DNA from: Bathymodiolus brooksi
Taxonomy: Eukaryota > Mollusca > Bivalvia > Mytilida > Modiolidae
Length of the DNA: 64,000 bases
Reading direction: 5' to 3'
Assembly (NCBI GenBank): GCA_963680875.1
Contig: OY804579.1
Span: 32,411,804-32,475,803, forward strand
Shown: in pieces, positions 2,331-58,900 of the stretch
How positions within the stretch are numbered: position 1 is the first letter of the stretch
Layout of the letters: each line of letters opens with the position of its first letter
Program-made: the position numbers and the translations under genes
Notes under the pieces: model-generated
The model's database searches: none
Seen by the model: only the letters and a program-made list of their open reading frames with translations
What the model was told of the DNA's origin: nothing

Positions 2331-2797
2331 TTGATTGTGTTTTAGTACTAACATTCCAGAAGATTACACCGAAGATTGTGTTTTAGTACTAACATTCCAG
2401 AAGATTACGCCGAAGATTGTGTTTTAGTACTAACATTCCAGAAGATTACGCCGAAGATTGTATTTTAGTACTAACATTCCAGAAGATTACACCGAAGATT
2501 GTGTTTTAGTACTAACATTCCAGAAGATTACGCCGAAGATTGTGTTTTAGTACTAACATTCCAGAAGATTACATCGAAGATTGTGTTTTAGTACTAACAT
2601 TCCAGAAGATTACGCCGAAGATTGTGTTTTAGTACTAACATTCCAGAAGATTACGCCGAAGATTGTGTCTTAGCACTAACATTCCAGAAGATTACGCCGA
2701 AGATTGTTTTTTTAGCACTAACATTCCAGAAGATTACGCCGAAGATTGTACATGTTTTAGAGCTAACATTGAAGAAAATTACGTCGAAGATTGTGTT
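2331..2797. repeat. 41-bp minisatellite carrying the gene's stop-codon region
   Basis: About 11 units of 41 bp. On the minus strand each reads like AATCTTCGGCGTAATCTTCT followed by GGAATGTTAG, that is N-L-R-R-N-L-L-E-C-stop, the same as the last codons of the polycystin-like gene ([13 protein letters not shown]). The innermost, most diverged unit is coding; the rest form the 3' flank or UTR. Confidence 0.93.
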
Positions 2798-4078
2798 TCA
2801 CTTGTGCCCTCAATTTGATATTTTGTAACTGTTTCTCTCTTTCAGATTGTGTAGTATTAAAGGAATGTTTTGATATCGTAGCAAATCCTACAGTATTCTT
2901 CAAGAAGTTTACAAGAAGATTGGAAATACCGTAGTATGGCGAACTTGTTGCCTGTTCTTGTCTAACTGTCGTAATGCCAACGTTTAATGTCGCATTTAAC
3001 ATTGTCATCAAAATCCACACCAAAAAAAGAACAAAGAAAAAATAATAAATACGTCCTAAAAATGGGTCTATGGTAAAAAGGTCATTCATACTGTTTTTCC
3101 CAATAATTGCATTAGTCAAAGTGGTGGATGCAACAAAAAGGTTTTTGTACGTTTCTAATTGTCTACCGAAAATAAGATACCCGAATCCCATAAAAGCAAA
3201 ATACACTATCAGAAACAGTATACAACAACCACAAAGATCCCAGCTAACATGGTGCATGACATTTCCTAGCTGGTTTATTGTTTCACTGTAACTTAGGACC
3301 CTCATTATTCTAAAGGAGATTAAAAATATTATAATTGCCAGAAAAATATTAAAAATGTCATCCCATGTAGCTATATGACTAAAATTAACGAATTTGTTTT
3401 TGTTTTCTGCAAATTTTGTCATACTGTAGTCTATCATAATCCACCGTCCAATATACATTATTGTACAAATAAAAAACATTAATATAATCAAAATGTCTAG
3501 AACATCCCATATATCCTCTAGGGTCTTCCTTTTCCGTTTACGGAAAGAAATAGCCTTCCTAACAGCAAATACAATTATGCCCACCAAGACAATGATTTCA
3601 CATATAAATGTGACAATTCCAAGACTATCAACATGCTGGTATGGCCTAAACGGTTTAATAGTAGAGGACGTGAGAATACCTCCAGTCTCTAGAAACTCAC
3701 ACAGGAGTGACACGTAGATAAATACATTATTATCTACATTATAAAGAGTAAACTCTGTAAAAACAGCCCGAGTTTTACGATCTATCCAAATATAAGTGTA
3801 TAAATCATCAATGATTTGCTTAGAAATGTTATAATTAACAATAAATTCAGCTATATAGCCACCACCACCGTATGTATTGTGAATCCCAGTGGTTGGTAGC
3901 CCCCAAATATCTAATGAGGACACAAAGTTCCAAGCAGCATTTGTTATATTGTATACAGATTGACCCCTTACACATGGTTCCGTCTCCCAACCAACACAGT
4001 AACTTCCATCGTCTTCTCCTGGTATTGTGTATTCATAGATGCAAGTTGGAATATTCAACCATTCTGACTTGCAGTTTT
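2763..4078 (-). CDS. Polycystin-like last exon: TOP domain end and polycystin channel
   Basis: Residues 1951-2388; acceptor TTATGTTGTAG, stop TAG at 2,763-2,765. It has the rest of the TOP domain ([32 protein letters not shown]), the polycystin motif region [20 protein letters not shown] and ETGGI, then five helices from about [16 protein letters not shown] to [16 protein letters not shown]. The pore stretch reads [16 protein letters not shown], without the Gly-Asp of PKD2 filters. The cytosolic tail is only about 80 residues, with no EF-hand or long coiled coil visible. The last ten codons ([10 protein letters not shown]) are themselves a diverged unit of the 41-bp array that follows the stop. 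Confidence 0.96.
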
Positions 4079-16900: not shown

Positions 16901-19900
16901 TATAGCTACTGACAACCAAAGATGACTCTCAGTCGTGTTTTCTCTGACGTTTTCGGTAAATAGAAAAGAGAATCGTTTCATGTCTGCTTTACTGGTCACG
17001 GGAACGATGCATTCGATACTACCATACTCATCATCTAGTGATAGCCACGTGTCAAAAATAAACACATGCCTGAAATAATAAGAATAGGTGTCACATATAT
17101 AAACACATGCCTGAAATAATAAGAATGAACGTCATATATAGCCACGTGTCAAACATAAACACATGCCTGAAATAATAAGAATAAGCCTCATATATAAACA
17201 CATAACTAAAACACATGCCTACAATAATGACAATGCGTGTCAAACATAAAGACATGCCTGAAATAATTATGGTGTCAAACATAATCACATACTTGAAGCT
17301 AGCACATTCCTAAAATAATGGCAGCAAGTCTCTAAATAAACGCACACCTGAAAAATGGCAATATGTGTCATTCATAAAACGCGTGCCTACAATAATGACA
17401 ATATGTGTCAAACATAAACACATGTCTGAAATAGTAGCAATACATGTCAAAAATGTACATGTAAATAGATGCCTGAAATATGTTTATATGAAGCGCAGTC
17501 ATAGGTGACCATAGCCGATTTTGGAGATTTTGATTTTTGGTTTACTTGTTCCAAAAACTTTCTAAATTAATTGGCGTTCCAACCTTCGACTTTGAGCGTA
17601 CCTGATGAAGGTTATTCCAGAAACGCGTCAAGTGCACTAAATTTGATATCTACGTTTTTATTCGTAATGAAAACTAATAAATGTCATGAACATTCGTTTT
17701 TATCACGGTTCCCCGAAATTGTATTGGAATGAAATATGTATTTCTTCATTAATTATTATCAACTTTATCATAGTATTAATTGCTCTAGAAAATTGATTTT
17801 TGTGTTGGTGCAAAAGAAATAATTAATCATGTTCATAAAAATATGAGAAAGTCTATAGCAATTATAAAGCAAAAATCAGTTTTTCAATATATAACAATGA
17901 CAACTAGAATATAAAGAAACAAAGGTAGCATACATATCAAAGGGACGGTGTTAGAAATAAACATCACATATATCAATACTGATACAGTACACCAGATGTA
18001 CATTTATGTGTTTAACTTCTTCGTCTATTCTTCAAAATTGTTCATCATTATTTAGTATCCGGATTCGAACGTTTAGACTACTCGTTATCATGTATCCCGT
18101 CATGAATGGAAGTCAATACCTTTTGTCACTGTAAATACGAAATCCGTGTTGTAATGTTTATGCATTTCATCATTGTTTGGCATCCAGATTCGAATTTGTA
18201 TACTGTTGGTCAAAGTTTTGAAATCCACATTCTATTACTGATCTGACCACGATACCTATGTTAATTTCATGATCAAGGTGTCACGTACATTATGACGCTA
18301 TGTATATATAACATTTAACATATATTGGGTATGGTTAGTTATGTACGCTGTTACCCTTACTTCTCCTGTGTCTGAATGTCTTCTATCATTATCTTAGCAA
18401 GGTACCATGATGCATCATGTCCTACTCCACTATTGTCATGCCAAATCTTCATAGCCGTTGGATCTCCAATACGCCTTGTTTTGCTCATCACAAAACGTCT
18501 TACACTACCGGTAGAAAACCCCTAAAATATCATTACAACGTGTATAGTGTAGCTTTATTGACAATGAAAAACTTAAGTAAGAATGTGTTTAGTTCATTGT
18601 GAATCATTCCAACTGATCAGTGAGTCATATTTAAAAAAAAACCTTTCTGTGTTTGACATTTCATATTGCACCATGCAGAATATCTGTTCCTCAGCTTGAT
18701 GTAGTAGTGTTTTTCAATGTAAACTGATGCATATCCTAGATAGCTTAATTTATGACACGATCGAATATAGAGAGCTGGAAATAAGGAAACTCTTATTCTC
18801 ACCCCTTGGATAAAGTAGTCCGTTAGTTTAGGTGGAAAAGATTTTTCTATCTTACCCCGGCTCCAGGGTAAGACAAGCTACACGCCGTTTTTCCCGCAAA
18901 ATTGTTTTCCATTGTTGAATTAAATTGTCGATATATAGTGTCTTGACAGTATTTCACAATAAAATACAATAAAATACAATGTATTTTATTTATAAATATA
19001 TTATAAATGCTACTACAACAGCGATAAATGCCTGTAAAAATTTTTATTTGACGTTGATCAAAGGGAGGTAATTGTTTTTATTTACGTCACCTAACAAGGG
19101 AGAGTACTCTATATTTTCTCAACGTAAACAAATATATAAAGAGATGAGAAAAAGAGGCAAACATCGTAAAAGGTGCAAGATTTTGTTTATTGTAGAATCT
19201 ATCACAAGTTTGTTTACTTTATTATTTTGAACCTCTTTAAAGTTGTAAAATGAAAATCTTGTTTTATTTTAATATGAAACCGGCACGGCCTTGAATGCTC
19301 GCGCATCTGAAAATTATCTGGCAATTTCATCAAAAAGTGTCGAGATTTTTTGGGCCGAGATATATTAGGGACGACGTTTTTTAGGGCCGAATCTAGTCTC
19401 ATTCAATCGAGCTGTCGTTCCTTTATTCGAGTTATCGTTCCTTACGAAATCTCAAAAGTTAACTTCCGCGTAGAAACAAAAATTCTTGTCAGTATGTCAG
19501 AAGAGATTTAATAAATTAAAAAATATCAATATAAGTAAAACAAGCTAGCAAAATGACTTTTATTACATATGGGTTCCGGGTTTCAGTGGTATCGGACGTA
19601 CGAGAGAGGGTACGAGACCTCAGGATCACATTTGCGCTTTATGTTAAGAAGATCTTCATTAGTTGAGTGTGTTAGTGTGTTACCCGGAAACCGGTGTTTA
19701 CAAAACGTAGAATTTTTTTTTCTTCGACAATATGTTCAACCATGTTTGTTAAAAAATCCTAAAGTACACATTTTATACCATAAAGAGCTCGCTTAAGCTC
19801 GCATATTACGTGGCATTTTGGTCCTGGCGTCTGTGATACGGTTCGCAAATTAATGCACCAAACTACACAACAAGTAAACAAACATTGACACGGTAGAAAG

Positions 19901-22900
19901 GGGTGAGAAAAAGAGTCAAACACCGTAAAAGGTGCAAGATAGTACAATCTGTGACACCCTCGGATAAGATTTAAATCGTATTGGACTCGGACAAGCCTCG
20001 TCCGATACGATTTAAATCTCATATCCAGAAATTGAGGGTACTTTCCTCATAAATATTCATCATATTTAAATTAGATTTTGATCACGTGACTGCAGTTTCA
20101 AGCTTATTAGATTTGTCAAAAAATAGCCTATAGTACGGAAATTCAATGTGTCCGTCAATGATTCGAAAATTAAAAGTTATTGTTTATTTCCGCAAAGTTT
20201 TTCTTCTGTCAAATTTCAAATATTTTTGTTTTGTAACGATTTTAGACATGTCTTTGATATCGCGATCATGCAAAAATGATCATATTATATTTAATGTGGG
20301 AAGCTAGAAATATAAGGTTAGTTAATATAATTACATGTATTATTGAGGAATCTAAATTAATTTCAGAAAATATGTCGCCAAATGTCATTCATTGTTAAAT
20401 TTTGTGTCACACGCCACCAGTTTCATGTATTTCAGACATTTTTACATAGACTCTTAAGGCCAAAAAAGGGTTCGTCGCCTCGGATTTTCATTTAGTCCAG
20501 GAACCTCGAATATTTAATTGTTTTCATTAATTTTTATTTCATTTAATTCAGCTTGATTCAATGTATCATTTTCAAGTTCAGAAAATGACACACATGCAAT
20601 TATGAATGATATCGTCTATATAGATCATATGAAAATTGCAGACGTCCCAGCGTCGCCATCTTAGATATGCAAATGAGCAAAGTACCCATCATTTCTGGCT
20701 ATGTTACCCTCGGGTGTCACAGATTTTACTATCTTGCACCTCTCCCGGTGTTAGACCATATATTTCTTTCGTAAATGGTCATTTTCGGGTTGAGACGACC
20801 GAGTTAAGACGAGTGCACGTGCACTCGTCTTTACTCGTTGTGACATCCAATCAGAACGTTTCTAACAAGAAAACAATCGTTTAAATATATATCCTAAGCC
20901 GGGAATGTCACATTATATACCCTGTCTGATAGCTGAATAACAGATATATTACGGATTTAACCATTGGGTTTTTTTTCAAATACAGACTCCAACCGTATTA
21001 AATATATTTGTGTCTTTTATTTTCCCTTTTTTCGTATTTCTAGATGTCCTTTTCCGTACCTTTGACGTCATTCTTCAATGACGTCAAAATATGTGTCACG
21101 TCATATTTCATCTCATGAAGGAAAATACTGTACTTTCAATAAAATAATATGAGACAGGCAACCTGTTTGAAGGACGAAGTCCTAAAATTTCAATAATACG
21201 ATGATCCGTACACGCAATTACGAACAATTTCGATGATATTGACCGTGACATTTGATAATGAATTTGACCAAATTGTCAATTGATGAAGCTAATTGCATGT
21301 TCATATTTCAGATTAAACACCAATATTCCTTTTGAATCATAGCTCATATATTATTCAATGCATTTTTACGGGTTTTAACTTAGAACAGATTTTCATGACC
21401 CCGTTCTAGTCAATCTGTGACCTAGATCCGGACACAATTTCGAACGACATCATAATAACCTTTCTAGTGTAAATTATTTAATGACAACTGTTAAAATTGA
21501 AAGAGCATTCATTCATTTACGTTCACATATCTATTTGTATATAATACACATGACATAAAAACCTTTCCTTTATTCATACCATAAATGTGTGCCAGTTTGC
21601 ATTCGGAATTCCTTGGACTCTTCAATGAATAAGGTACATCACGGATTTTGACATTTTGGGATAGATCAAGGTAACGAAAATGTATCCTATTATATTGACT
21701 GTTTTTGTTTTAATTTCAATGTGTTCTACATATGCATAGAACCAGGAGATCATATTCTTTCCAATTACAGGCATAAGATAACAAAATATGCGTACCTCAA
21801 TGAATTTTAGCGATAGATTCCAAGTGCAATTGTCGATCGTTTTCTGTTTACAAATATGAAAACCCGTCGTCTACAACATTCAACAACTGCGCATGAATAA
21901 TTTTCTCCCAAAACACGAGTAATTTAGCGGGGTATCTATTTATAAAAGCATTTTTTTATTTCATGTTTTGAAGGAACAATTAGGGGACATACTTTTTATT
22001 TCGTTCGTAATTGCGTCCGGTGAGGCTATTATCTTTTATTTTTAATGAATTGTGCAGCCGATTTGTTATGGCGTTCATTTTACCTACGCCGCTCTTCCAT
22101 AGGGAGTTTCGTAGAAAGAGATTTTTTTATTAGAATTTTATTAAAAGTTTATTTCGATTTTGCAGAGAGTAAATAATCAAAGAATTGGGAATTTTTCATT
22201 GAAATATATTTCTTTTGCGTTTCTAAATTATCAGTTGATCTATTTTTTAAACTTCCGGTGAGCAGATTTTTGGCTATCAATATAGAAGGAAAAATCGGAC
22301 AGCTTACCGTTAGAAGGACTTCGTCCTTTAATATGAGACAGGCAACCTGTTTGAAGGACGAAGTCCTAAAATTTCAATAATACGATGATCCGTACACGTT
22401 AGCCTCACCGGACGCAATTACGAACAATTTCGATGATATTGACATTTGATAATAAATTTGACCAAATTGATGAAGCTGATTGCATGTTCATATTTCAGAT
22501 TAAACACCAATATTCCTTTTGAATCATAGCCCATATATTATTCAATGCATTGTTACGGGTTTTAAACAGATTTTCATGACCCCGTTCTAGTCAATCTGTG
22601 ACCTAGATCCGGACACAATTTCGAACGACATCATAATAACCATTCTAGTGTAAATTATTTAATGACAACTGTTAAAATTGAAAGAGCATTCATTCATTTA
22701 CGTTCACATATCCATTTGTATATAATACACATGAAATAAAAACCTTTCCTTTATTCATACCATAAATGTGTGCCAGTTTGCATTCGGAATTCCTTGGACT
22801 CTTCAATGAATAAGGTACATCACGGATTTTGACATTTTGGGATAGATCAAGGTAACGAAAATGTATCCTATTATATTGACTGTTTTTGTTTTAATTTCAA

Positions 22901-25900
22901 TGTGTTCTACATATGCATAGAACCAGAACCAGAATCATACGGATAGGGATTAATATAAGTTCTTGTAACTTGTTTCCCAATCCTATTAATTTCTTCTTAT
23001 TATGTAATGTATATAGCTGAATATTGTAATGTTATATTGAATTAATTAATCAAATATGTTTAAACTAACCAGAAGATCATATTCTTTCCAATTACAGGCA
23101 TAAGATAACAAAATATGCGTACCTCAATGAATTTTAACGATAGATTCCAAGTGCAATTGTCGATCGTTTTCTGTTTACAAATATGAAAACCCGTCGTCTG
23201 CAACATTCAACAACTGCGCATGAATAATTTTCTCCCAAAACAAGAGTGATTTAGCGGGGTATCTATTTATAAAAGCATTTTTTTAATTCATGTTTTGAAG
23301 GAACAATTAGGAGACATACTTTTTATTTCGTTCGTAATTGCGTCCGGTGAGGCTATCATCTTTTATTTTGAATGAATTGTGTAGCCGATTTGTTATGGCT
23401 CATTTTACCTACTTACTGTACGCCGCTCTTCCTGTCGGGAGTTTCGTAGAATAAGATTTTTTTATTAGAATTTTATTAAAAGTTTATTTCGATTTTGCAT
23501 AGAATAAATAATCAAAGAATTGGGAATATTTCATTGAAATAGATTTCTTTTGCGTTTCTAAATTATCAATTGATCTATTTTTTAAACTTCCGGTGAGCAG
23601 ATTTTTGGCTATCAATATAGAAGGAAAAATCGGACAGCTTACCGTTAGAAGGACTTCGTCCTTTATTACCAAAAATCGTATAGCCGTTAGAAGGGCTTCG
23701 CCCTATATTAGTGAGAAAAGCTCAAATATCAGTAGAAAGCTACTTAGTTTATCAATCGGTGTCACAAAAGTCAATTTTATGTGATGTGTATTTCATAACG
23801 CTCAATCTTATGATATTGATCTGATAATTTATGCAAATTAGTTACTGATCAATGGCGGGGGTCTCTAGGAGTTCGCGATAGTGAAAGTTGTTGGTTTACG
23901 GAAGAAATAAGTACTTACATGCGTTGTTGGCAAAGCCCGGGTGATCTTCCACTCACGATAGAAATTTTTCTTTCTTTTCGCTCGTTTCGCTGCGCTCCAC
24001 TCGCGAAAAGACATAAAATTTATATCACTCGTGGAAGATCACCCGGTCTTTCCCAAGAACGTATGTAAGAACTTATTAGTCTCAGTTCTAGTTTTTATAC
24101 CAGTTCCTCTTCTCGTTTTATATTAACTTTTGTATGTACCATAATAAGGTATTCAAAGAAATGAATTAATCTCGATTTAATATACCATTCTCATATATTG
24201 ACCTACGTTCACAACCTTAAGATCACAATACAGGGATGAAATGTATGTTCTAACTAAAACCAAGTTATATGAATGGATAGTTTATCAGTGTAGATTTCCC
24301 CCAGAAATATATTAAACTTTTTTGTTGTTGGAAAAAAGTCCTCAAACAATGCTACAAACCTGGTGATGTTCATCATCTAGACGTCTAACAAAATTACAAG
24401 GATATGGGTCTTCTCCGTCAATAATGATGAAGCAGACATTGGATTTGGTTCCAGCGTGTCTGTGTAATCCAGTATAGACAGTTACTATGTACAAATAATC
24501 ATCATTTTCGACATTGTCCACTAAGTATGATATGGTCCACTGTTAAAACACCATATTTATCAATATAAAGCATAGGATATGTACAAGTACTCGTCACATT
24601 ATAATGTGAAACAACAAATTATATATATATAAATACAATATACGTACATTGTCGGTAAATATAAAATTTATTTGTACGAGCTTTAGAAACAGGCAGAATA
24701 GCGAGCTTTTCAGGCCTGTTTCGCAGCGAGTACAAAGGAATTTTATATTTAACGACAATGTACGTATATTGTGTTTATCCTGCAATGTCAAAAAGTCGGA
24801 AAACTTGTCAGATTTAAACAAAAAGGACAGAAACAAGCGTCATTCCTCGCCTTTCATAACTGTTGTCAAGGGTGTCTTTTTCGTGGTCCGCGTTACATTA
24901 GTACCAGTTTCATACTTGTCTGCGCCCTCCGCTGTACATAGCTACAGGGTACCAGGAAAGTTTATTCGTAGGCTGAAAAGTTTATTCGTAGGCTGAAAAG
25001 TTTATTTGTCTAGTACGAATAAAGCAAACATTTATTGGTATAGCATATTTGTACAGCAAATGTACTGATTGCAGGATAAATATTAATACATTATACATTA
25101 AGAATAGAGTAAAAATCGGATACAATTAATCATCACATAACAGTATGAAACGACACAATGTCAAACATGTTATATACATTAATATAAGAAGAGTTTGAAG
25201 ATACCAACAGTCAGAATCAGTAAATTGAACAACGATTAACAAAACACTACACAGAAAACTAAAGATTGAGCAACACAAACCCCACTAAAAACTGGGGTGA
25301 ACTCTGGTACTCCGGAAGGGTAGGTAGTTCTTACTCCACATGTGACATCCGTCGTGGTTCTCTTGTTTCAAACCCGGTGATAAGAACACATCCGTGGTTA
25401 CCTGTGACACAGATACTCCGTACCTGTTAACTAAGTCATGGTGACGACCATGAAGCTTTCGAAGTGATGACACCAACTTAACCAGCAGTAACCCAGACCC
25501 AGCACGAACCTCCGGCTGAGCAGCAACCCTTCATCAAGGAAATCACGATAGGAACCACACGATCTTGAACATCGGATCAGCTGAGAGATATGCACTTCAT
25601 ATGCAGGTGTCTTTGTAATGTTGCTACACATAAATGGAGAGTTCGCAATGGGAAAATTGAAATCACCTCTTGTGTCGTATAGTTTCGTTCTTAACCGGTC
25701 CTCACTGTTAATATCAAGATGTAGGTCAAATATAGAACGGATTGGTGTGTGGGTGGTTATGTGTGTCTCTTGCCACGTTCTCTATCATATAACGGATCGA
25801 TATGTAGGCGGTTATGGGTGTCTCTTGCCACGTTCTCTATCATACAACGGATCGATATGTAGGCGGTTATGTGTGTCTCTTGCCACGTTCTCTATCATAT

Positions 25901-28900
25901 AACGGATCGATATGTAGGCGGTTATGTGTATTTAATGCAACACTCTCAAATATTGTATACCGGATCGATATGTAGGCGGTTATGTGTGTCTCTTGCCACG
26001 TTCTCTATCATACAACGGATCGATATGTAGGCGGTTATGGGTGTCTCTTGCCACGTTCTCTATCATATAACGGTTCGATATGTAGGCGGTTATGAGTGTC
26101 TCTTGCCACGTTCTCTATCATATAACGGATCGATATGTAGGCGGTTATGTGTGTCTCTTGCCACGTTCTCTATCATATAACGGATCGATATGTAGGCGGT
26201 TATGTGTGTTTAATGCAACACTCTCAAATATTGTATACCGGATCGGTATGAAGGCGGGTATGAGAGTTTATCGCCACATTTTCTTATATATTCTCAGTTT
26301 TATTGGTGCAGTCAACCGATATCCTGTAACAAGTCCTTGACGAACTTCATCACATAACCATGAATCGAGTAAGTGGTAATCGGCAGTGATGTCTTAGTTA
26401 AATGTAAACTATTATACGATAACGATAACCTGGGCATAATGAAGTGAACATAAAACGATAACCACTCAAATCAAAGTTAAGTAACAACATCTTCTTCATT
26501 GAGAGGACAATATTGTGGTATAAGTAAATATAGTGATATAAGTATATTCTAAAAAAAAAACCTGCATATGTGAATTGTAGCCTGTTCTGCTTCAGGAATA
26601 TCAGGATCTTATGACTTTTCAATGATGATAAGAAACTTTGAGGTCATGTTTAAGACATAATACGCCATGTAAGGTAGTGTTTACTGCTTGTTTCTGTGGT
26701 TGTTCTTCAAATTTTTAATTATGCTTTATATTGTTTGCAATGTTGTTATATTATTTTGATTTAGTTCTTTGTGTTAGGGTTGATGTCTAACGCCACTTTC
26801 TACAATATTTCAGTGATATTACGGTGGTCAGTCTTATTGGTGAAGGAAACCGAAGTACTCGGAGAAAACCACTGACCTGCCGCAAGTCACTGACAAACTT
26901 TATCGCATAATAGTGTATCGCGTACACCTCGCCTGAGCGCGATTCGAACTCACAGCGTAAGTGCTGATAGGAACTGATTGCATATGTAGTTGTAAATCCA
27001 ACTACCATACGATGACGAACACGACGGCCCGTAAATGAATAATAAAAGATAAAAATAATTATTTATAATTCTAGAGGATACCCTTCTAATATCCTTTTTA
27101 TCTTGTCTAAATGCCCAAACACATATCAATATGTAAATGATTAAAAGGCATATAACAGTAGAAAAAACAGCAGCATTGTCTTTCAGGTCAAACTTAGAGA
27201 AGACAGAACTGAGGTCAATGGTGTTTGGGGGTACGTAGAATGTTGTAGCGAAACTGTTCCCTGGTGGATTAGTACATTCACAAACTGTTTCGTTTAATGT
27301 TGACAGAGTAGATACCTAAAATTAAATAACATTTGTAAAAATAACACATAACTGAATTAGAGTAATATAATATACAGTGACTCTTTTTATGTTAATATTT
27401 TTGTTTGAAATACATTTATAATCGAATGTTTTAAGGTCTTTATAGTTCCATTTACATTGTTTGATGTTTTCGTCAAATATTCCAAGGAGTGTAACTCTCA
27501 TAAACAAAGTAAACATGACCTTGACATTTCTCATACATTTTCCATGTAGAACAATACTTCGGTTAGACGTCGTTTCAAATGACAAATACAATTTCATTTG
27601 TGTGCATACTGGTACCAGACTGTGCCTTTGAACATCAGAATTATCTTGAATGTGTGTCAATATTAATGTCACAATACTCCCTGGAGGATTTACCCAAGCT
27701 ACATTCGTATTTACTATTGGCCCCACTTTACAGCGTCAGAAAAGGCACAATAAATTAGATTTTATCTTTATATTGTAGAACACAATTATTTTGTTATTCC
27801 AATTTCATTCGTAATATTCATGAGTAATAATATCATACAAGAGGAAATATTTGTTTGTAATGGTTCAACATCCTAATTAATTAGAGATTGTATCATATTC
27901 TAGTTCTCGGTAATTAAACATTTTACAACTAGAAGTACTATTCTACATTTACCAAGGACTTATCTCATTGTGTGTATGGTTCCTCACTCCTTTAAAGCTA
28001 ATATATTTACCTTACAAGACGTCTTATCCCACTGTTGGACGTCTTGGTTCCACACCCTACAACCAGTAGTAACACCACCGATACCATATTCTACTAGATT
28101 AGTCTGTGTTGATCTCTTACGTCTAGATGATGCTACAGTTGTATTATAGCCTAAGGTACACAGAATAACAATGTGTAATATTCGTTTAATCTCAAAAATC
28201 TATATCGATCAACAATTTGGTTTTTGCTTTGTTTTGTTTTGTCTTTGTTTTTGTTTTTTTGTTTTTTGCTTTTGTATTTTGTTTTGTTTTCATACATTTT
28301 TCCTTATCTAATTTTCACTTTTGAAGACATTGCTTTTTTTCAACATTAAAAGGAAAAAAAAGATACCAAAGGAGTAAACAGAAGCCGTAAATCGAAGGAC
28401 ATGCCATACAATGTTAAACGACAAAACGACAAACAGAGGTCAATAAAACACAAATAGAAAATTGAAGAATGAACAATAAGAACCCCACTAACAACCCGGA
28501 GTGACATCAGGTGCTCCGGAAGGGTAGGCAATACCTGTTCTACTAGTGGCACCTGTCGTGTTACTCGTGATTTATATCCGCTGATAAATCATGAAAAGAG
28601 AAAGGACATGACAAATATGACGTTATAACTCATTAAATACAAAGACATATGATGTGCTGTTATAACTCATTAAATAGAAATACATGTGTACGTTTAGGCA
28701 GACGAACAATCATTTACATTAAAATTATCTTGTGTATATATCTTTCGTGGCCATATACTCATCTTCTTGACAATATATCTAATATATCATAGAACAATCT
28801 GTAGGACTACCCTTTATACAGACTTGTTTTCTGGGTATTCACTCCGTTTAATACATATGTAATTGAGCAAAAACCGATCGTATTTATGACCACAAATAGT

Positions 28901-43900: not shown

Positions 43901-46900
43901 AAAACAACACCCGTGAAACATAATATACTAATTAGATTAAAAACTACAAAATTTACAGTTCAAACAGAAAACACAACACTGAAACATCACATCAATTACA
44001 TGATGATTAATAACCATAATTCGGGGTGACAAATCACAAAATTGCAATGAAACATGACATTAAACTGAAATGCTTAGGACAATTGAAAAAAACCCAGATC
44101 TGATAATAAGAAAAGCAACAACAAGAAAGGGGGAGAGTTAAGGTGAACCAAAAGACGAACGACGAAGCTTGTCTTATAACACCCGTCTTGAAGTCCTAAC
44201 TTAATATTGATATGTACCTGATAACATCCAATTCTGCCATTCTGTATTATCAACAGCTTGTCTGGTGTAGATGTTAAAATTTTTGATATTCCACCACAAT
44301 TTAGAACCTTTCATTTGATCTAATGTACAGAAAGGGCATGCAACTTTTAACGAAAGTATCGATGTTAAAGCTGTCTTCTTCATACAGTTTAATCGACATC
44401 TGAATAATTTTAATACGATACATTCAATAAAACAAAACTATTATACCTAGAAAAATAAAGCATAACCTAAATAGATTTTCTTCTATGTTCTTGTTGTGAT
44501 AACACATACAAGACGATACAATAGTGAATGGAATAATTATTTTGAAAGTGAACGAAAATATAAAACGGAATTACGAGCACAATCAAAAGAGGCTTACAAT
44601 GTTTTACAATTAATATTTAAAATACCAAAAAAACTAATAAATTACAATGCTGTAAAATATACAAATAATTCATTACTAACTGTTTCATTGTTTTAATAAC
44701 AAACGGTAAACCTATATACTGTAATATAGTGTAACACAAACAATGTGATTGTATTGATAATTTAACACAAACAAGGTGATTGTATTGATAATTTAACACA
44801 AACAATGTGATTGTATTGATAATTTAACACAAACAATGTGATTGTATTGATAATTTAACACAAACAATGTGATTGTATTGATAATTTAACACAAACAATG
44901 TGATTGTATTGAAAATTTAACACAAACAAGGTGATTGTATTGATAATTTAACACAAACAATGTGATTGTATTGATAATTTAACACAAACAATGTGATTGT
45001 ATTGATAATTCAACACAAACAATGTGATTGTATTGATAATTTAACACAAACAAGGTGATTGTATTGATAATTTAACACAAACAATGTGATTGTATCGATA
45101 ATTTAACACAAACAATGTGATTGTATTGATAATTTAACACAAACAAGGTGATTGTATTGATAATTTAACACAAACAAGGTGATTATATTGATAATTTAAC
45201 ACAAACAAGGTGATTGTATTGATAATTTAACACAAACAATGTGATTGTATTGATAATTTGACATTAAGATTTAGGTAATAAACACGTAGATAATTAAGCA
45301 CAACAAAATGACAACTTACTCTATGTGTAACTCAGGGGGGTTCTCAGATACTGACTGTGCATACTGCACAAAGTAGCTAATTGATCCGTTAAATTCTACT
45401 CGGACATTAACTAAATATCCAATCCCAAGAATGACATCTATCTCAGTTACACTCAGTCTCCCAGTTCCATTATCAAACCCATCAAATAGTTCACATTCAC
45501 TCGATTGGAATAGTTCATCTTCAATCCACTGCAGGTAATAACGTTCTTTGTTTCTCATGTCGAACCAGTCATATTTGTTGATCTTATAAAATCCCTCGAA
45601 TAATTCTCCAAGAAAATTTAAGAGACACGTTCCCCACTCGTCTATATATAGTTGCATATAACCATCTATACCTATATAGTTGATTAAGTCAACCCCGTCA
45701 TAGATGTAACTAATATATGCTTCATAGGTCGTCAAAAGTGGCGACACAGTTTCTGCAAATGATGTACTTTCACTAGCAATTTTAAGCCATGTCTTAAGGT
45801 TTTCAAAGAACGTTGCATTAGCACTGGCTGGTAATCCATCTAAACCCTCCAGCTGACTGATACTTTGTAGTGTTAGAAAACTTTCTGATAATCTTTGGAA
45901 AAAGTCTAAGGAGAATATAGATAATGGGGATATGTTTGTACCATAGTAAAACTCTAAGAATGTAAACAATTCATTTGTAACAAGTTCGGTATAGACAGGA
46001 AGTGGTAAAGCGTTCTTTAAACTATATATTGGTTTTGATTTATTACTAAAATCTTTAAGATACATAATATTGTAAAATATTGTTAATGGTACAAGATCAT
46101 AGATTGGTACTGTTGTATTTTCGGCAGTGTCATTTTGATAGTTGTCGCTTGTTATGTGTTGAAAACTGCCAGGTGTTACTTTAACATAAATTTCATCTGC
46201 TGTTGAACATGTAGCATTGTTATTTCTGAGGTATGATACCCGTTCGTACAACGTTGAGACATCAATCCAGGGTACTTGTTCATCTACATGTTCTGTAAAA
46301 CCAGACTGGTACCACTTCCTCTCATATCCGGTTTCATCATTAAAAGCTGAGGTAGGATTGATACTTAATTGAAGCAATTTATACAAATGTTTTGTGATAA
46401 ATTTTAGACATCGCCATTCAAATGTTAGGCCAGAAGGGTCACCTGGACCTTTTGCTAAGCTGTAAGAGACAGAACGAGCATCAAAGGCTGCAATACCTTT
46501 ACCTATATTTTTACCTGATCCACCCTTTATGAACGCATGTGGTGGGGGATGCATTATTTTGATATACATAGATTCCTCCATCCAATGTTCCATGCTGCCT
46601 GGTGGGTATCCTATTTTAATATATAGTCGGTATGTCCCTACGTCATAGCTTCCAGGCTTTATTATGAACTTTATTGTAGATCTTTTCGGTCTAACTTTTG
46701 TTTCTGTACTGGTTGTTGTATTGACACTATATATGTTCCAGTAGTTTTGAATAATGGTATCCGTTGTACATTTATTCTTTGTCAGTGAATAAATCTCGAC
46801 TTGAGCTGAAGTATATATAACCATTGGATTATCTTCCTTAAGAAACTTCTCCTCGAAAATCCTTGATGTCAAGCAGGGAGGTGTAACTAAAAAATGACAT

Positions 46901-49900
46901 GAATTCATAGAAATATTATGCACAAACAAAATAATCCAATAAAGCATAACGGTTGCCCGTTATTATTGATCTAAATACACCATTTGCATATAATAAATAC
47001 ATGTATCCCACTTTCAATACAATCTTAGATGAATGTATTACATCAAAAGAAATGAATTCACTCATTCAAATATATCTTGGAACAGCTTCAAATGAAAATA
47101 ATTAGGACATGTTTTTGTTAATAATATAAGACATAAAACTTGACTTGTTGTAGTACCAATAATGACAATCGTAACATTACTCTTATAATTGTGTGCGTGA
47201 AGAATAAGTGAACGAAGATTATCATGTTACAAATATAGTTCTAATTACTGAGGCCGAATATGAGGGATTCTACTTTGCTATCAGTCAAGCACAAATAATT
47301 TTCTTTCTATATTTAATAAAAGCATTATACTATTCCATAGCTCTATACTATTCCATAGCTTTATACTATTCCATAGCTTTATACTATTCCATAGCTCTAT
47401 ACTATTCCATAGCTTTATACTATTCCATAGCTCTATACTATTCCATAGCTTTATACTATTCCATAGCTTTATACTATTCCATAGCTCTATACTATTCCAT
47501 AGCTTTATACTATTCCATAGCTTTATACTATTCCATAGCTTTATACTATTCCATAGCATCATACTATTCCATAGCTTTGGACCCATAAAACTAGTTTAAC
47601 ACTCCCACTTTTTATCGGGGTTTCTGCACCAATTCAGGAATGTGAGGGTTCATGTATTTGTGTGATAGGGGTATCGATATTTCATCTTTCTGTGCTTTTT
47701 ATGTGTGCTTTTTGGGACTATTCTGACTGTGTTGTATTTTTTGCTTTTCATTTTAATTTGTAAATTGACCTTTGTTTTAATATATTAATATTAACATATT
47801 ATCAATAGGAAGATTGATTAACAATTTTTATTTGCATCGTCAGAGGAAATTACTGGTGTGATTGAATAATAAATTTGTATTAAACAGACAATAACTCTAT
47901 CAGTATTCATACATCTACAGTAAACAGACTATAAATCTACCAGTATGCATACCTCTACAGTAAACAGATTATGACTCTACCAGTATGCATACCTCTACAG
48001 TAAACAGACTATAACTCTATCAGTATTCATTCCTCTACAGTAAACACACCATAATTCTATCAGTATTCATACCACTACAGTATACAGACAATAGCTCTAT
48101 CAGTATGCATACCTCTACAGTAAACAGACCATAATTCAATCAGTATTCATACCACTACAGTAAACAGACTATAACTCTACCAGTATTCATACCACTACAA
48201 TAAACAGACTATAGCTCTATCAGTATGCATACCTCTACAGTAAACAGACTATAACTCTACCAGTATGCATACCTCTACAGTAAACAGACTATGACTCTAC
48301 CAGTATGCATACCTCTACAGTAAACAGACTATAACTCTACCAGTATTCATTCCTCTACAGTAAACAGACCATAATGCTATCAGTATTCATACCACTACAG
48401 TAAACAGACTATAGCTCTATCAGTATTCATACCTCTACAGTAAACAGACTATAACTCAACCAATATGCATACCTCTACAGTAAACAGACTATGACTCTAC
48501 CAGTATTCATACCTCTACAGTAAGCAGAATATGACTCTACCAGTATTCATACTTCTACAGTAAATAGACTATAATTCTATCAGTATTCATACCACTACAG
48601 TAAGCATACTATGACTATACAAGTATTCATACCTCTACAGTAAACATACTATAACTCTATCAGTATTCATACCTCTACAATAAACAGAATATGACTCTAT
48701 CAATGTTCATACCTCTACAGTAAGCAGACTATAATTCTATCAGTATGCATACCTCTACAGTAAACAGACGATAACTCTATCAGTATTCATACCTCTACAG
48801 GAAACAGACTATGACTCTATCAGTATTCATACCTCGCCCGCAAACAGAATATGACTCTATCAGTATTCATACCTCTACAGTAAGCAGACTATGACTCTCC
48901 GTATTCATACCTCTACAGTAAGCACACTATTACTCTAACAGTATTCATACCTCTACAGTAAACATACTATAACTCTATCAGTTTTCATGCCTCGACAGTA
49001 AACAGACTATAACTCATTCAGTATTCATACCTCTACAGTAAGCAGACTATAACTCTATTGGTATTCATACCTCTATCGTAAACGGACTATGACTCTATCA
49101 GTATTCATACCTCTACAGTAAACAGACTATAACTCTATTAGTATTCATACCTCTATCGTAAACGGACTATGACTCTATCAGTATTCATACCTCTACAGTA
49201 AACAGACTATAACTCTATCAGTATTCATACCTCTACAGTAAACAGACTATAACTCTATCAGTATTCATACATCTACAGTAAACAGACTATAGCTCTATGA
49301 GTATTCATACCTCTACAGTAAACAGATTATAACTCTATCAGTATTCATATCTCTACAGTAAGCATACTATAACTCTATCAGTATTCATACCTCTACAGTA
49401 AGCAGACTATACCTCTATCAGTATTCATACCTCTACAGTAAACAGATTATAACTCTATCAGTATTCATATCTCTACAGTAAGCAGACTATAGCTCTATCA
49501 GTATTCATACCTCTACAGTAAGCAGACTATAACTCTATCAGTATTCATACCTCTACAGTAAGCAGATTATAACTCTATCAGTATTCATACCTCTACAGTA
49601 AACAGACTATAACTCTATCAGTATTCATACCTCTACAGTAAGCAGACTATACCTCTATCAGTATTCATACCTCTACAGTAAACAGATTATAACTCTATCA
49701 GTATTCATATCACTACAGTAAGCATACTATAACTCTATCAGTATTCATACCTCTACAGTAAACAGACTATAACTCTACCAGTATTCATTCTTCTACAGTA
49801 AACAGACCATAATTCTATCAGTATTCATACAACAACAGTAAACAGACTATAGCTCTATCAGTATTCATACCTCTACAATAAACAGACTATAGCGCTATGA

Positions 49901-52900
49901 GTATGCATACCTCTACAGTAAGCATACTATAACTCTATCAGTATTCATACCTCTACAGTAAACAGACTATAACTCTACTAGTATTCATACCTCTACAGTA
50001 AACAGACAAAATCTACCAGTATTCATACCTCTACAGTAAACCAACTATAACTACTCAACCAGTATTAATACCTCTACAGTAAACAGACTATAATTATATC
50101 AGTATTCATACCTCTACAGTAAACATACTATAATTATATCAGTATTCATACCACTACAGTAAACATACTATAACTCTACCAGTATTCATACCTCTACAGT
50201 AAGCATACTGTATCTTTATCCGTATTCATACCTCTACAGTTAACAGACTATAACTCTATCAGTATTCATACTTCTACAGTAAACATACTATGACTCTATC
50301 AGTATTCATACCTCTACAGTAAACAGACGATAACTCTACCAGTATGCATACCTCTACAGTAAACAGACTATAACTCTGTCAGTTTTCATGTCTCTAGAGT
50401 AAACAGACTATAACTCAATCAGTATGTATACCTCTAGAGCAAACAAACCATAACTCTACCAGTATTCATACCTCTACAGTAAGCAGACTATAACTCTATC
50501 AGTATTCATACCTCTACAGTAAACAGACTATTACTCTACCAGTATTGATACCTCTACAATAAGCAGACTATAGCTCTATCAGTATTCATACCTCTACAGT
50601 AAGCAGACTATAACTCTATCAGTATTCATACATCTACAGTAAGCAGATTATAACTCTATCAGTATTCATACCTCTACAGTAAGCAGACTATACCTCTATC
50701 AGTATTCATACCTCTACAGTAAACAGATTATGATATTCTCAGTATTGATATCACTACAGTAAGCATACTATAACTCTATCAGTATTCATACCTCTACAGT
50801 AAACAGACTATAACTCTACCAGTATTCATTCCTCCACAGTAAACAGACCATAATTCTATCAGTATTCATACCACTACAGTAAACAGACAATAGCTCTATC
50901 AGTATTCATACCTCTACAATAAACAGACTATAGCCCTATCAGTATGCATACCTCTACAGTAAACAGACTATAACTCTATCAGTATTCATACCACTACAGT
51001 AAAAAGACTATAGCTCTACCAGTATTCATACCACTACAGTCAACAGACTATAGCTCTATCAGTATGCATACCTCTACAGTAAACAGACTATAACTCTACC
51101 AGTATGCATACCTCTACAGTAAACAGACTATGACTCTACCAGTATGCATACCTCTACAGTAAACAGACTATAACTCTATCAGTATTCATACCACTACAGT
51201 AAACAGACTATAGCTCTATAAGTATTCATACCACTACAGTAAACAGACTATAGCTCTATCAGTATGCATACCTCTACAGTAAACAGACTATAACTCTACC
51301 AGTATGCATACCTCTACAGTAAACAGACTATAACTCTATCAGTATTCATACCACTACAGTAAACAGACTATAACTCTACCAGTATGCATACCTCTACAGT
51401 AAACAGACTATGACTCTACCAGTATGCATTCCTCTACAGTAAACAGACTACAACTCTACCAGTATTCATTCCTCTACAGTAAACAGACCATAATTCTATC
51501 AGTATTCATACCACTACAGTAAACAGACTATAGCTCTATCAGTATTCATACCTCTACAGTAAACAGACTATAGCTCTATCAGTATGCATACCTCTACAGT
51601 AAACAGACTATAACTCTATCAGTATGCATACCTCTACAGTAAACAGACTATGACTATACCAGTATTCATACCTTTACAGTAAACAGATTATGACTCTACC
51701 AGTATTCATACCTCTACAGTAAACAGACTGTAACTCTACCAGTATGCATACCTCTACAGTAAACAGACTATGACTCTACCAGTATTCATACCTCTACAGT
51801 AAGCAGATTATGACTCTACCAGTATTCATACCTCTACAGTAAATAGACTATAATTCTATCAGTATTCATACCACTACAGTAAGCATACTATGACTATACA
51901 AGTATTCATACTTCTACAGTAAACATACTATTACTCTATCAGTATTCATACCTCTACAATAAACAGAATATGACTCTATCAGTATTCATACCTCTACAGT
52001 AAGCAGACTATAACTCTATCAGTATTCATACCTCTACAGTAAACAGACGATAACTCTATCAGTATTCATACCTCTACAGTAAACAGACTATGACTCTATC
52101 AGTATTCATACCTCGACCGCAAACAGAATATGACTCCATCAGTATTCATACCTCTACAGTAAGCAGACTATAACTCTATTAGTATTCATACCTCTATCGT
52201 AAACAGACTATAACTCTATCAGTATTCATACCTCTACAGTAAACATACTATAACTCTATCAGTATTCATACCTCTACAGTAAACATACTATAACTCTATC
52301 AGTTTTTATACCTCTACAATAAACAGACTATAACTCTATCAGTATTCATACCTCTACAGTAAACAGACTATAACTCTATCAGTATTCATACCTCTACAGT
52401 AGACATACTATAACTCTATCAGTATTGATACCTCTACAGTAAACAGACTATAACTCTATCAGTATTCATACTTCTACAGTAAACAGGTTATAACTCTATC
52501 AGTATTCATACCTCTACAGTAAACAAAATATAACTATATCAGTATTCATGCCTCTACAGTAAACAGACTATGACTCTATCAGTATTCATACCTCTACAGT
52601 AAACAGAAGATAACTCTACCAGTATGCATACCTCTACAGTAACCAGACTATAACTCTATCAGTTTTCATGTCTCTAGAGTAAACAGACTATAACTCAATC
52701 AGTATTTATACCTCTAGAGCAAGCAAACCATAACTCTACCAGTATTCATACCTCTACAGTAAGCAGACTATAACTCTATTAGTATTCATACCTCTACAGT
52801 AAACAGACTATTACCCTACCAGTATTGATACCTCTACAGTAAGCAGACTATAGCTCTATCAGTATTCATACCTCTACAGTAAGCAGACTATAACTCTATG

Positions 52901-55900
52901 AGTATTCATACCTCTACAGTAAGCAGATTATAACTCTCTCAGTATTCATACCTCCACAGTAAACAGACTATAACTCTATCAGTATTCATACCTCTACAGT
53001 AAGCAGACTATACCTCTATCAGTATTCATACCTCTACAGTAAACAGATTATAACTCTATCAGTATTCATATCTCTACAGTAAGCATACTATAACTCTATC
53101 AGTATTCATACCTCTACAGTAAACAGACTATAACTCTACCAGTATTCATTCCTCTACAGTAAACAGACCATAATTCTATCAGTATTCATACCACTACAGT
53201 AAACAGACTATAGCTCTATCAGTATTCATACCCCTACAAAAAACAGACTATAGCACTATCAATATGCATACCACTACAGTAATCAGACTATAACTCTATC
53301 AGTATTCATACCTCTACAGTAAACAGACTATAACTCTTTCAGTATTCATACCTCTACAGTAAACATACTATAATTCTATCAGTATTCATACCTCTACAAT
53401 AAACAGACTATAACTCTATCAGTATTCATACCTCTACAGTAAACAGACTATAACTCTATCAGTATTCATACCTCTACAGTAGACATACTATAACTCTATC
53501 AGTATTCATACCTCTACAGTAAACAGACTATAACTCTATCAGTATTCATACCTCTACAGTAAGCAGACTATACCTCTATCAGTATTCATACCTCTACAGT
53601 AAACAGATTATAACTCTCTCAGTATTCATATCTCTACAGTAAGCATACTATGACTCTATCAGTATTCATACCTCTACGGTAAACAGATTATAACTCTACC
53701 AGTATTCATTCCTCTACAGTAAACAGACTATAACTCTATCAGTATTCATACCTCTACAGTAAACATACTGTAACTCTATCAGTATTCATACCTCTACAGT
53801 AAATAGACTATAGCTCTATGAGTATTCATACCTCTACAGTAAGCATACTATAACTCTATCAGTATTCATACCTCTACAGTAAACAGACTATAACTCTACC
53901 AGTATTCATACCTCTACAGTAAATAGACAAAATCTACCAGTATGCATACCTCTACAGTAAACCGACTATAACTACTCTACCAGTATTAATACCTCTACAG
54001 TAAACAGACTATAATTATATCAGTATTCATACCACTACAGTAAACATACTATAACTCTACCAGTATTCATACCTCTACAGTAAGCATACTGTATCTTTAT
54101 CAGTATGCATACCTCTACAGTAAACAGACTATAACTCTATCAGTATTCATACCTCTACAGTAAACAGATTATAACTCTATCAGTATTCATACCTCTACAC
54201 TAAACAGACTATAGCTCTATGAGTATGCATACCTCTACAGTAAGCATACTATAACTCTATCAGTATTCATACTTCTACAGTAAACAGACTATAACTCTAC
54301 CAGTATTCATACCTCTACAGTAAATAAACAAAATCTACCAGTATGCATACCTCTACAGAAAACCGACTATAACTACTCTACCAGTATTCATACCTCTACA
54401 GTAAACAAACTATAATTATATCAGTATTCATACCACTACAGTAAACATACTATAACTCTACCAGTATTCATACCTCTACAGTAAGCATACTGTATCTTTA
54501 TCAGTATTCATACCTCTACAGTTAACAGACTATAACTCTATCAGTATTCATACTTCTACAGTAAACAGACTATAACTCTATCAGTATTCATACCTCTACA
54601 GTAAACAGACTATTACTCTACCAGTATTGATACCTCTACAGTAAGCAGATTATAGCTCTATCAGTATTCATACCTCTACAGTAAGCAGACTATAACTCTA
54701 TCAGTATTCATACCTCTACAGTAAGCAGATTATAACTCTATCAGTATTCATACCTCTACAGTAAACAGACTATAACTCTATCAGTATTCATACCTCTACA
54801 GTAAACAGACTATAACTCTACCAGTATTCATTCCTCTACAGTAAACAGACCATAATTCTATCAGTATTCATACCACTACAGTAAACAGACTATAGCTCTA
54901 TCAGTATTCATACCTCTACAATAAACAGACTATAGCGCTATCAGTATGCATACCTCTACAGTAAACAGACTATAACTCTATCAGTATTCATATCTCTACA
55001 GTAAACAGACTATAACTCTATCAGTATTCATACCTCTACAGTAAACAGACTATAACTCTATCAGTATTCATACCTCTACAGTAAACATACTATAACTCTA
55101 TCAGTATTCATACCTCTACAATAAACAGACTATAACTCTATCAGTATTCATACCTCTACAGTAAACAGACTATGACTCTATCAGTATTCATACCTCTACA
55201 ATAAACAGATTATAACTCTATCAGTATTCATACCTCTACAGTAAACAGACTATAACTCTATCAGTATTCATACCTCTACAGTAAGCAGACTATACCTCTA
55301 TCAGTATTCATACCTCTACAGTAAACAGATTATAACTCTCTCAGTATTCATATCTCTACAGTAAGCATACAATGACTCTATCAGTATTCATACCTCTACA
55401 GTAAACAGACTATAACTCTATCAGTATTCATACCTCTACAGTAAACATACTATAACTCTATCAGTATTCATACCTCTACAATAAACAGATTATAACTCTA
55501 TCAGTATTCATACCTCTACAGTAAACAGACTATAACTCTATCAGTATTCATACCTCTACAGTAAGCAGACTATACCTCTATCAGTATTCATACCTCTACA
55601 GTAAACAGATTATAACTCTCTCAGTATTCATATCTCTACAGTAAGCATACCATGACTCTATCAGTATTCATACCTCTACAGTAAACAGACTATAACTCTA
55701 TCAGTATTCATACCTCTACAGTAAACAGACCATAACTCTATCAGAATTCATACCTCTACAGTAAGCAGACTATTCCTCTATCAGTATTCATACCTTTACA
55801 GTAAACAGATTATAACTCTCTCAGTATTCATATCTCTACAGTAAGCATACCATGACTCTATCAGTATTCATACCTCTACAGTAAACAGACTATAACTCTA

Positions 55901-58900
55901 TCAGTATTCATACCTCTACAGTAAACATACTATAACTCTATCAGTATTCATACCTCTACAATAAACAGACTATAACTCTATCAGTATTCATACCTCTACA
56001 GTAAACAGACTATAACTCTATCAGTATTCATATCTCTACAATAAACAAATTATAACTCTATCAGTATTCATACCTCTACAGTAAACAGACTATAACTCTA
56101 TCAGTATTCATACCTCTACAGTAAGCAGACTATACCTCTATCAGTATTCATACCTCTACAGTAAACAGATTATAACTCTCTCAGTATTCATATCTCTACA
56201 GTAAGCATACCATGACTCTATCAGTATTCATACCTCTACAGTAAACAGACTATAACTCTACCAGTATTCATTCCTCTACAGTAAACAGACCATAATTCTA
56301 TCAGTATTCATACCTCTACAGTAAAAAGACTATAGCTCTATCAGTATTCATACCTCTACAGTAAGCAGACTATAGCCTATCAGTATGCATACCTCTACAG
56401 TAAGCATACTATAACTCTATCAGTATTCATACCTCTACAGTAAACAGACTATAACTCTGTCAGTATTCATACATCTACAGTAAACATACTATAACTCTAT
56501 CAGTTTTCTTACCTCTACAATAAACAGACTATAACTCTATCAGTATTCATACCTCTACAGTAAACAGACTATAACTCTATCAGTATTCATACCTCTACAG
56601 TAGACATACTATAACTCTATCAGTATTCATACCTCCACAGTAAACAGACTATAACTCTATCAGTATTCATACCTCTACAGTAAGCAGACTATAACTCTAT
56701 CAGTATTCATACCTCTACAGTAAGCATACTATAACTCTATCAGTATTCATACCTCTACAGTAAACAGACTATAACTCTATCAGTATGCATACCTCTACAG
56801 TAAACAGACTATATCTCTATCAGTATTCATACCTGTATAGTAAACATACTATAACTCTATGAGTATGCACACCTCTATAGTAAACAGACTATAACTCTAT
56901 CAGTATTCATACCTCTACAATAAGCATACTATAACTCTATCAGTATTCATACCTCTACAGTAAACAGACTATAACTCTATCAGTATGCATACCTCTACAG
57001 TAAACAGACTATATCTCTATCAGTATTCATACCTGTATAGTAAACATACTATAACTCTATGAGTATGCACACCTCTATAGTAAACAGACTATAACTCTAT
57101 CAGTATTCATACCTCTACAGTCAACAGATTATAACTCTATCAGTATTCATACCTCTACAGTTGCCTGTGTCGTTAGAAGATCCTAAACAGTAATATCCAG
57201 AACAGATTGGATAGGGATTGTTGCAATAACGACTTCTTTCACGTGTTCCTGTTCCATATATGGATGTAGAATTTGGAGTAATACATGGTCCCCAGCTGTT
57301 CCACTCACCCCACTGTCCGTCTACTGGTCCTATAGATAGTAGATAAATTTAGGATGCATATGAATATGTTTAAGCAAAAAAGCTATAAATGCAGATGAAA
57401 AAAAAAATGGAAGTTCATATAAATATTATTCTCTCAGTATGAAAACCATACATATCTATTCACACATGGTTGATTATTAGTTCTGGAGAGCATCATCCAC
57501 ACAGTATTCAGTGTTTCATGGTTGATTGTTAGTTCTGGAGAGCATCATTCGCCCAGTATTCAGTGTTTCATGGTTGATTATTAGTTCTGGAGAGCATCAT
57601 CCGCCCAGTATTCAGTGTTTCATGGTTGATTATTAGTTCTGGAGAGTATCATCCACACAGTATTCAGTGTTTCATGGTTGATTGTTAGTTCTGGAGAGCA
57701 TCATTCGCCCAGTATTCAGTGTTTCATGGTTGATTATTAGTTCTGGAGAGCATCATCCACACAGTATTCAGTGTTTCATGGTTGATTGTTAGTTCTGGAG
57801 AGCATCATCCACACAGTATTCAGTGTTTCATGGTTGATTATTAGTTCTGGAGAGCATCATCCACACAGTATTCAGTGTTTCATGGTTGATTGTTAGTTCT
57901 GGAGAGCATCATTCGCCCAGTATTCAGTGTTTCATGGTTGATTGTTAGTTCTGGAGAGCATCATCCACACAGTATTCAGTATTTCATGGTTAATTGTTAG
58001 TTCTGGAGAGCATCATTCACACAGTATTCAGTGTTTCATGGTTGATTGTTAGTTCTGGAGAGCATCATTCGCCCAGTATTCAGTGTTTCATGGTTGATTG
58101 TTAGTTCTGGAGAGCATCATTCGCCCAGTATTCAGTGTTTCATGGTTGATTATTAGTTCTGGAGAGCATCATCCACACAGTATTCAGTGTTTCATGGTTG
58201 ATTGTTAGTTCTGGAGAGCATCATTCGCCCAGTATTCAGTGTTTCATGGTTGATTATTAGTTCTGGAGAGCATCATCCGCCCAGTATTCAGTGTTTCGTC
58301 ACTGACATGGTATATAAGTTATCATTTAAATTAACAATGCCTAAATAATGTAATTATTAATCAAAACTAAGAGTCTATTCCCTCTGACATAGGTCATCTA
58401 TGACGATTTTGGCTATCCTATTTAAGTTTGGTTTTATTGCTATCAAACACTTTTAAATTACTTAGCTTTGCAATCTTTCGATTTTGACTTGATTTTGTTT
58501 TGGTGTTTAACGCCACTTTCAGCAATATTTCAGCTATATCATGGCGACCAGCTTTAGTGGTGCAAGACGCCGGACAACCCGGAGAGAACCACCGACCATT
58601 GGTAAGCAACTGGTAAACTTTATCACTTGCGGCTGCGAGTCGAGTGCATCCATTTTGTAATTTACAAAACCGGGCGCGAACCCACACCGTATTGGTGATA
58701 GGCTTGTATGAGTTGTTAGGTAATCCAACTACCTAACTCATTGAGCCACCCCTTTCGATTTTGAGCGTACATGATAATGGCTATTCCAAAAAACACGACG
58801 TGCGAAAAACATATCCATTAATATAGTATTCAGTTACTGGTGACTAATTCATATATTAGAATAAAATTGAAAATATACTTGCATGGAAAATTTTACACAT

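Follow-up and report, generated by a model that had tools for sequence, protein, structure and literature searches.

Why is the donor splice site of a single exon followed by more than two hundred tandem copies of itself, and do the copies serve the gene? The question arises in 64,000 nucleotides of Bathymodiolus brooksi DNA (C5:32411804-32475803 of a 2.0-Gb assembly; the whole stretch is called the window), which are occupied by a minus-strand polycystin-1-like (PKD1L2-like) gene. The copies lie in the intron that follows an exon with a TSP1 domain. Very probably they form a minisatellite, in which a segment spanning the junction (9 nt of exon and 31 nt of intron) was tandemly duplicated and expanded to 232 units, a molluscan mirage in the sense used for lancelet genes, with no benefit to the gene.

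The donor array occupies 47881..57161 on the minus strand and consists of 232 head-to-tail units of 40 bp, 205 of them with GT. Over this interval Tandem Repeats Finder (TRF) returned a period of 40, 232 copies and 89% matches, and parsing into units gave 227 with the full 40 bp and 5 with 38, 39 or 41 bp. The unit reads ACTGTAGAG, the 9 bp of the exon end, followed by GTATGAATACTGATAGAGTTATAGTCTGTTT, the first 31 bp of the intron. The first unit begins at 57161, 9 bases within the TSP1 exon, whose end is at 57153. The initial annotation had described about 230 tandem donor copies directly after the real junction, between 47880 and 57153; the number and the location held, and the limits are corrected to 47881-57161. 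The 227 full-length units comprised 138 distinct sequences, with GT at +1/+2 in 201. The 19-mer ACTGTAGAG/GTATGAATAC (the slash marks the junction here and below) occurred exactly 107 times, true site included, and the 9-mer GAG/GTATGA 130 times. The chance of an in-register match to the 9 exon bases was about 4e-6 by our own arithmetic.

The gene was recognised by Pfam matches to REJ (3.7e-07), Polycystin_dom (1.8e-26) and PKD_channel (5.9e-38), and the Pfam TSP1 matches were weak (E = 0.0018 and 0.096, under the gathering cut-offs). A protein search returned seven relatives, all from Mytilus and with an identity of about 50%, two of which are named PKD1L2. With these relatives tblastn placed 22 exons in the window and one upstream of it at 70229-69978; the matched stretches had no stops for P0006 and one stop, in 1 of the 22 stretches, for P0002. 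The TSP1 exon (57153..57329, minus strand) measures 177 nt between its boundaries and is supported by the end of the tblastn alignment and the weak Pfam match. The next exon (45320..46886, minus strand) is supported by the REJ match, its boundaries and tblastn, and the intron between the two exons has 10,266 bp, about 90% of which is array. The alignment stopped at 57154 in six of the seven Mytilus relatives and at 57148 in the seventh, and restarted in the interval 46917-46881, three relatives sharing 46887. Because the homology alignments end at the junction, the TSP1 exon is assigned independently of the repeat. The exon closes with AAC TGT AGA G/ (GNCR), the final 9 nt of which are the exon part of the unit, and the REJ exon opens with /TT ACA CCT CCC TGC (VTPPC). 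In the 8-row alignment GNCR was invariant (8/8) and the cysteine past the junction was present in 7 rows, P0007 being without it. The intron was expected to split a TSP1 module, and the split does follow the NCR cysteine. A separate 52-bp array of 16 copies (57465-58297) lies in the intron preceding the TSP1 exon, some 136 bp away from its acceptor, and leaves the junction untouched.

Three paralogous TSP1-REJ exon pairs (L028, L029 and L030) were among the best matches of a genome-wide search. All three have an intron at the equivalent place, after exon ends that read TGTAGAG/GT, TGCAGAG/GT and TGTAAAG/GT, respectively. An array at the junction was absent from the three introns read (3/3); one of them holds a 13-bp array deeper inside. 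The closest matches to the unit in these introns had 17, 19 and 20 mismatches of 40, and the match of the third paralog includes stop codons, its gene being possibly broken. Because the paralogous junctions have the intron without the array, the array is a later addition to the junction of this gene, which agrees with the earlier proposal that it grew from the real junction. Judged by the invariance of GNCR in all eight rows, the TSP1 exon is the source of the exon part of the unit. An array that founded the intron is ruled out, the intron existing without it in 3/3 paralogs. Among the matches listed, all genome matches of the unit lay in the array. We do not favour a dispersed satellite that landed at the exon by chance, given that conserved coding sequence makes up the exon part and that the matches listed are local.

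Donor quality was scored from donor frequencies. On the minus strand 164 units matched or exceeded the score of the true donor, which is counted among them, or 17.7 per kb over 9.3 kb; the copies had been called functional-looking, and by this score most are. The remaining introns of this gene within the window had 46 such sites in 37,073 bp (1.24 per kb), and the opposite strand of the array had none. By the same score the true donor outranked 15 of 20 further donors located in the gene; the positions of the donors of two exons (39599 and 27082) are doubtful and were kept in this comparison. Computed U1 pairing averaged -5.1 kcal/mol for the unit and was -5.8 kcal/mol for the true donor, which by this measure fell behind 13 of those 20 donors. 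The inner donors closest to the exon were not generally weakened (third unit GAG/GTGTGC, fourth and ninth units CAG/GTATGA).

Selection on the donor columns was not found in either direction, by column variation or by the spread of variants. The GT columns (+1/+2) varied in 6.2% of units and the columns elsewhere in 6.3% (p = 0.60). The three variants that kill the GT had spread to a mean of 9.3 units, compared with 7.1 for 76 other variants (p = 0.13). The 60 units on the exon side were more alike, with about 3 to 4 inter-unit differences at the tested lags versus about 4.6 to 6.9 deeper in the array. A five-unit repeat occurs near the exon, and the array contains exact internal repeats of up to 212 bp, with offsets of 14, 5 and 7 units for the three longest. 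The array shows ordinary minisatellite turnover, apparently latest at the exon side. The data show that the junction predates the array, that the units are of donor grade and that no set of splice-site columns is significantly conserved.

The preferred explanation requires no role for the array. A short segment that happened to span an exon-intron junction of the PKD1L2-like gene would have been duplicated in tandem, and the array would presumably have expanded to 232 units by unequal exchange. A duplication with one breakpoint 9 bases inside the exon would leave the first donor where it was and so be tolerated, and later copies would fall into the intron and drift. The first donor would be chosen by exon definition, the upstream acceptor pairing with the nearest donor (exon of 177 nt; 217 nt with the next competitor). 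Fields of donors downstream and of acceptors upstream of an exon would both leave the true site innermost, and correct splicing would need no more than the pairing of the closest acceptor and donor across the exon. Occasional use of an inner donor would yield stop-containing transcripts, which would be degraded, and the array as such would do nothing for the gene.

Stop-containing transcripts could instead be the point of the array. If inner donors were used at a real rate, each would add a stop, and the gene would be tuned by nonsense-mediated decay. The inner donors equal or beat the true donor, as the CAG/GTATGA of the fourth and ninth units illustrates, and the repeat units of human IFI6 are, in the available part of the source, indeed employed as donors (PMC4526556). 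All 204 inner donors (204/204) introduce an in-frame stop, because a TGA in the first unit (57121..57123, minus strand) precedes the second donor (GT at 57112). Against such tuning, the donors bear no sign of selection, and the accessible lancelet data suggest regular splicing over arrays of this kind (PMC3087553). Use of the inner donors as alternative ends is therefore judged improbable.

The initial annotation had also suggested a U1-binding array or a splicing delay. At the RNA level, about 200 U1-binding donors would recruit U1, slow splicing or shield the intron from premature cleavage and polyadenylation. The density of donor-grade sites (164 in 9.3 kb) is 14 times that of the other introns, all of them are on the transcribed strand, and each of the first 20 donors has GT. 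Set against this, the GT columns are not conserved above others, the decay of donors is not purged, three paralogous introns manage without such an array, the computed U1 pairing of the unit is middling and an independent exon-end array in a convergent paralog is 98% donor-dead. The unconserved GT columns and the donor-dead paralog array point to neutral turnover and argue against a function in U1 binding or delay, for which we see only a slim chance; among the options raised earlier, neutral drift fits best, with donor-killing changes spreading as widely as others.

Hardly credible, and already refuted by the invariant GNCR of the Mytilus relatives and the three paralogs that have the junction without the array, is the reverse order of events, in which a pre-existing array supplied the exon end by exonisation, even though the true donor lies in register and cannot be told from a consensus unit. 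Recursive splicing was considered and set aside: inspection by eye shows CTGAT 25 nt ahead of TAG in the unit, yet several AGs intervene and the unit would make a poor acceptor.

Several observations weigh against a neutral minisatellite at an old junction. That splicing in this species uses the first donor is inferred from frame and homology alone. Beyond the donor, homology of the paralogous introns to the unit was not significant (p = 0.18-0.51), and a single-copy ancestor of the unit's intron part cannot be demonstrated from the paralogs. The confinement of the unit to the locus holds only among the matches listed. The donor columns -1 to +5 varied numerically less than the others (3.9% versus 6.7%; p = 0.18), and the TAG columns varied least (1.8%; p = 0.06). 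The first dead donor was unit 22, counting from 0, though 27 of the 232 units are dead overall, a pattern that might point to maintenance close to the exon or to no more than recent homogenisation in that part. Finally, exon edges were struck by arrays above random seeding, so that chance placement may perhaps not be the whole story. Arrays that overlap an exon by at least 5 nt numbered 4 of 32 in two genes, compared with about 1.2 expected from random seeding (p = 0.03), or 5 when the donor array of the convergent paralog was counted (p = 0.007); this test was post hoc and used a rough formula, with each merged array represented by its smallest TRF period. A strong hotspot of seeding at exon edges is rejected, the excess being mild and post hoc.

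Two further arrays touch exon edges in the window gene. Degenerate copies of an acceptor and exon start (17069..17480, minus strand) precede the PLAT-region exon (16412-17069); five have at most 10 mismatches of 34, and further copies are seen by eye. The other (2333..2798, minus strand) has 11.2 copies of 41 bp by TRF, the first of which is the last 36 nt of the coding sequence, with the stop codon at 2763-2765 included.

A convergent paralog lies 24-68 kb past the low end of the window, and the stretch read contained only that part of it which matches P0002 residues 1120-2510. Its GPS-region exon is followed by copies of the exon end and donor from window position -65298 to -53178 (C5:32346505-32358625; L023 from 4702 to L022 6822). 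An ungapped probe counted 217 copies with the true one included, most of them 39-41 bp long and those at the far end 57 bp, and GT was kept in 4, the true donor among them; this is a donor-dead counterpart of the TSP1 donor array. The same paralog has an acceptor array of 64-bp units (window -51867 to -47901; L022 from 8133 to L021 2099), in which the acceptor and about 53 nt of exon recur in 61 further copies, with CAG in 57 of 62, true one included. The AG columns varied like the others (6.6% versus 5.2%), and all 56 upstream acceptors with AG (56/56) would introduce a stop.

A third gene, at C5:33.14 Mb, has an acceptor-edge array of 38-bp units (L031/L032, C5:33143631-33140119), with the acceptor and exon start repeated 74 times by probe (50 with AG) and 87 copies by TRF. 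Two copies of this array with its 180-nt exon lie 1.8 kb from each other; the two exons share 99.4% identity, and the upstream exon is without a donor. Duplication of array and exon together is a possible route to new exons. The paralogs of the window gene thus contribute one donor and two acceptor arrays, in two paralogs.

A survey of four genes covered 50 exons and 100 edges, an edge being flagged when it had two or more copies or a TRF array. Ten of the 100 edges were flagged, and 8 were kept as 7 distinct edges, A to G; edge G was flagged twice, its exon being duplicated, and edge F was a polypyrimidine tract only. Two flags were dropped, 33138315 as its copies belong to the G array and 33130612 with two hits only. 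In the fourth gene none of 5 exons had an exon-edge array. The same edge was flagged in no two genes, exon coverage having differed between genes, and the arrays look separate in origin for the exons covered. That fields of live splice-site copies are common at both edges of exons in this bivalve genome, that innermost pairing keeps the genes working whatever the number of equal competitors outside and that the arrays breed exons by unequal exchange is, taken together, a tentative proposal that we hold as somewhat doubtful.

Tandem repeats are abundant around these genes, with 62% of the 254-kb region read and 43% of the two gene spans, an abundance that favours the neutral minisatellite. Upstream of the gene a 50-bp array of 1382 copies runs from window position 74927 to 144000 (L010 from 927 to the end of L016); its length of about 69 kb is a lower bound, as it extends to the end of the stretch read. 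Adjoining the 3' side of the gene, a 36-bp repeat array recurs six times every 1.6-1.9 kb or so (window -10077 to -1013; L017 and L018) as a larger repeat unit. Within one intron (21625-23702), near-identical short open frames recur at a distance of about 1.3 kb, a tandem duplication. At 25434-26209 a 55-bp array enters an open frame that by eye resembles the tail of a reverse transcriptase.

If the TSP1 junction is spliced normally, one true donor beats 204 live copies, 163 of which score at least as strong, and likewise the true acceptor in two paralogs wins over 56 and up to 50 live upstream copies. Because the sequence of the site does not discriminate, position and exon definition would have to decide, and the choice of splice sites becomes testable in a natural setting. 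The locus also presents a boundary-duplicating process known from lancelets at a far larger scale, in another phylum and with visible duplication of an exon.

Among known systems, Turri in 1995 reportedly described a minisatellite of IFI6 (6-16) that provides multiple splice donors. The available part of PMC4526556 likewise states that the human IFI6 (6-16) minisatellite supplies multiple donors, with two downstream repeat units said to serve as donors for different isoforms. As in the bivalve array, tandem repeat units there carry a donor at an exon end; unlike the IFI6 isoforms, each inner donor of the bivalve gene yields a stop. Passages of PMC2572611, PMC11506328 and PMC12771815 had nothing to add on the topic but a reference to IFI6. 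Intron gain by tandem duplication across AG/GT, as presented in the accessible portions of PMC4974935 and PMC2812944, copies splice signals likewise, but the bivalve intron predates the repeat, as three paralogs have it without the array, so the array did not create it. A molluscan exon-boundary array was not recognised in the open-licence literature, and one may be in print elsewhere.

The closest likeness is to the mirages of lancelets, which the parts seen of PMC3087553 and PMC3902484 describe as minisatellite-like tandem duplications of exon-intron boundaries, 5' and 3', in the globin genes BflGb6 and BflGb9 and in Adh3, TnC and PGBD5. The same parts give units of about 150-160 bp for the globin mirages, with BflGb6 haplotypes of 3 and 6 copies, and of 10-72 bp for Adh3. 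The globin and Adh3 repeats carry AG/GT signals, and reverse transcription PCR (RT-PCR) of the globins suggests regular splicing undisturbed by mirages (PMC3087553, available part). As far as these sources go, the bivalve array agrees with them: the unit spans an authentic junction and lies in the intron beside the true site, on the donor or acceptor side, many units retain AG/GT (here 205/232 with GT), repeat turnover is typical, and the concerted turnover within a cluster that marks lancelet mirages was found here too. It differs from the lancelet globin mirages, as far as they are described there, in having 232 units of 40 bp, in a mollusc and with several arrays in one gene family, and, whereas the globin genes have RT-PCR, the bivalve gene is known here from its DNA. 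The TSP1 donor array is a molluscan member of the lancelet mirage class, exceptional in its size and in its recurrence within one gene family.

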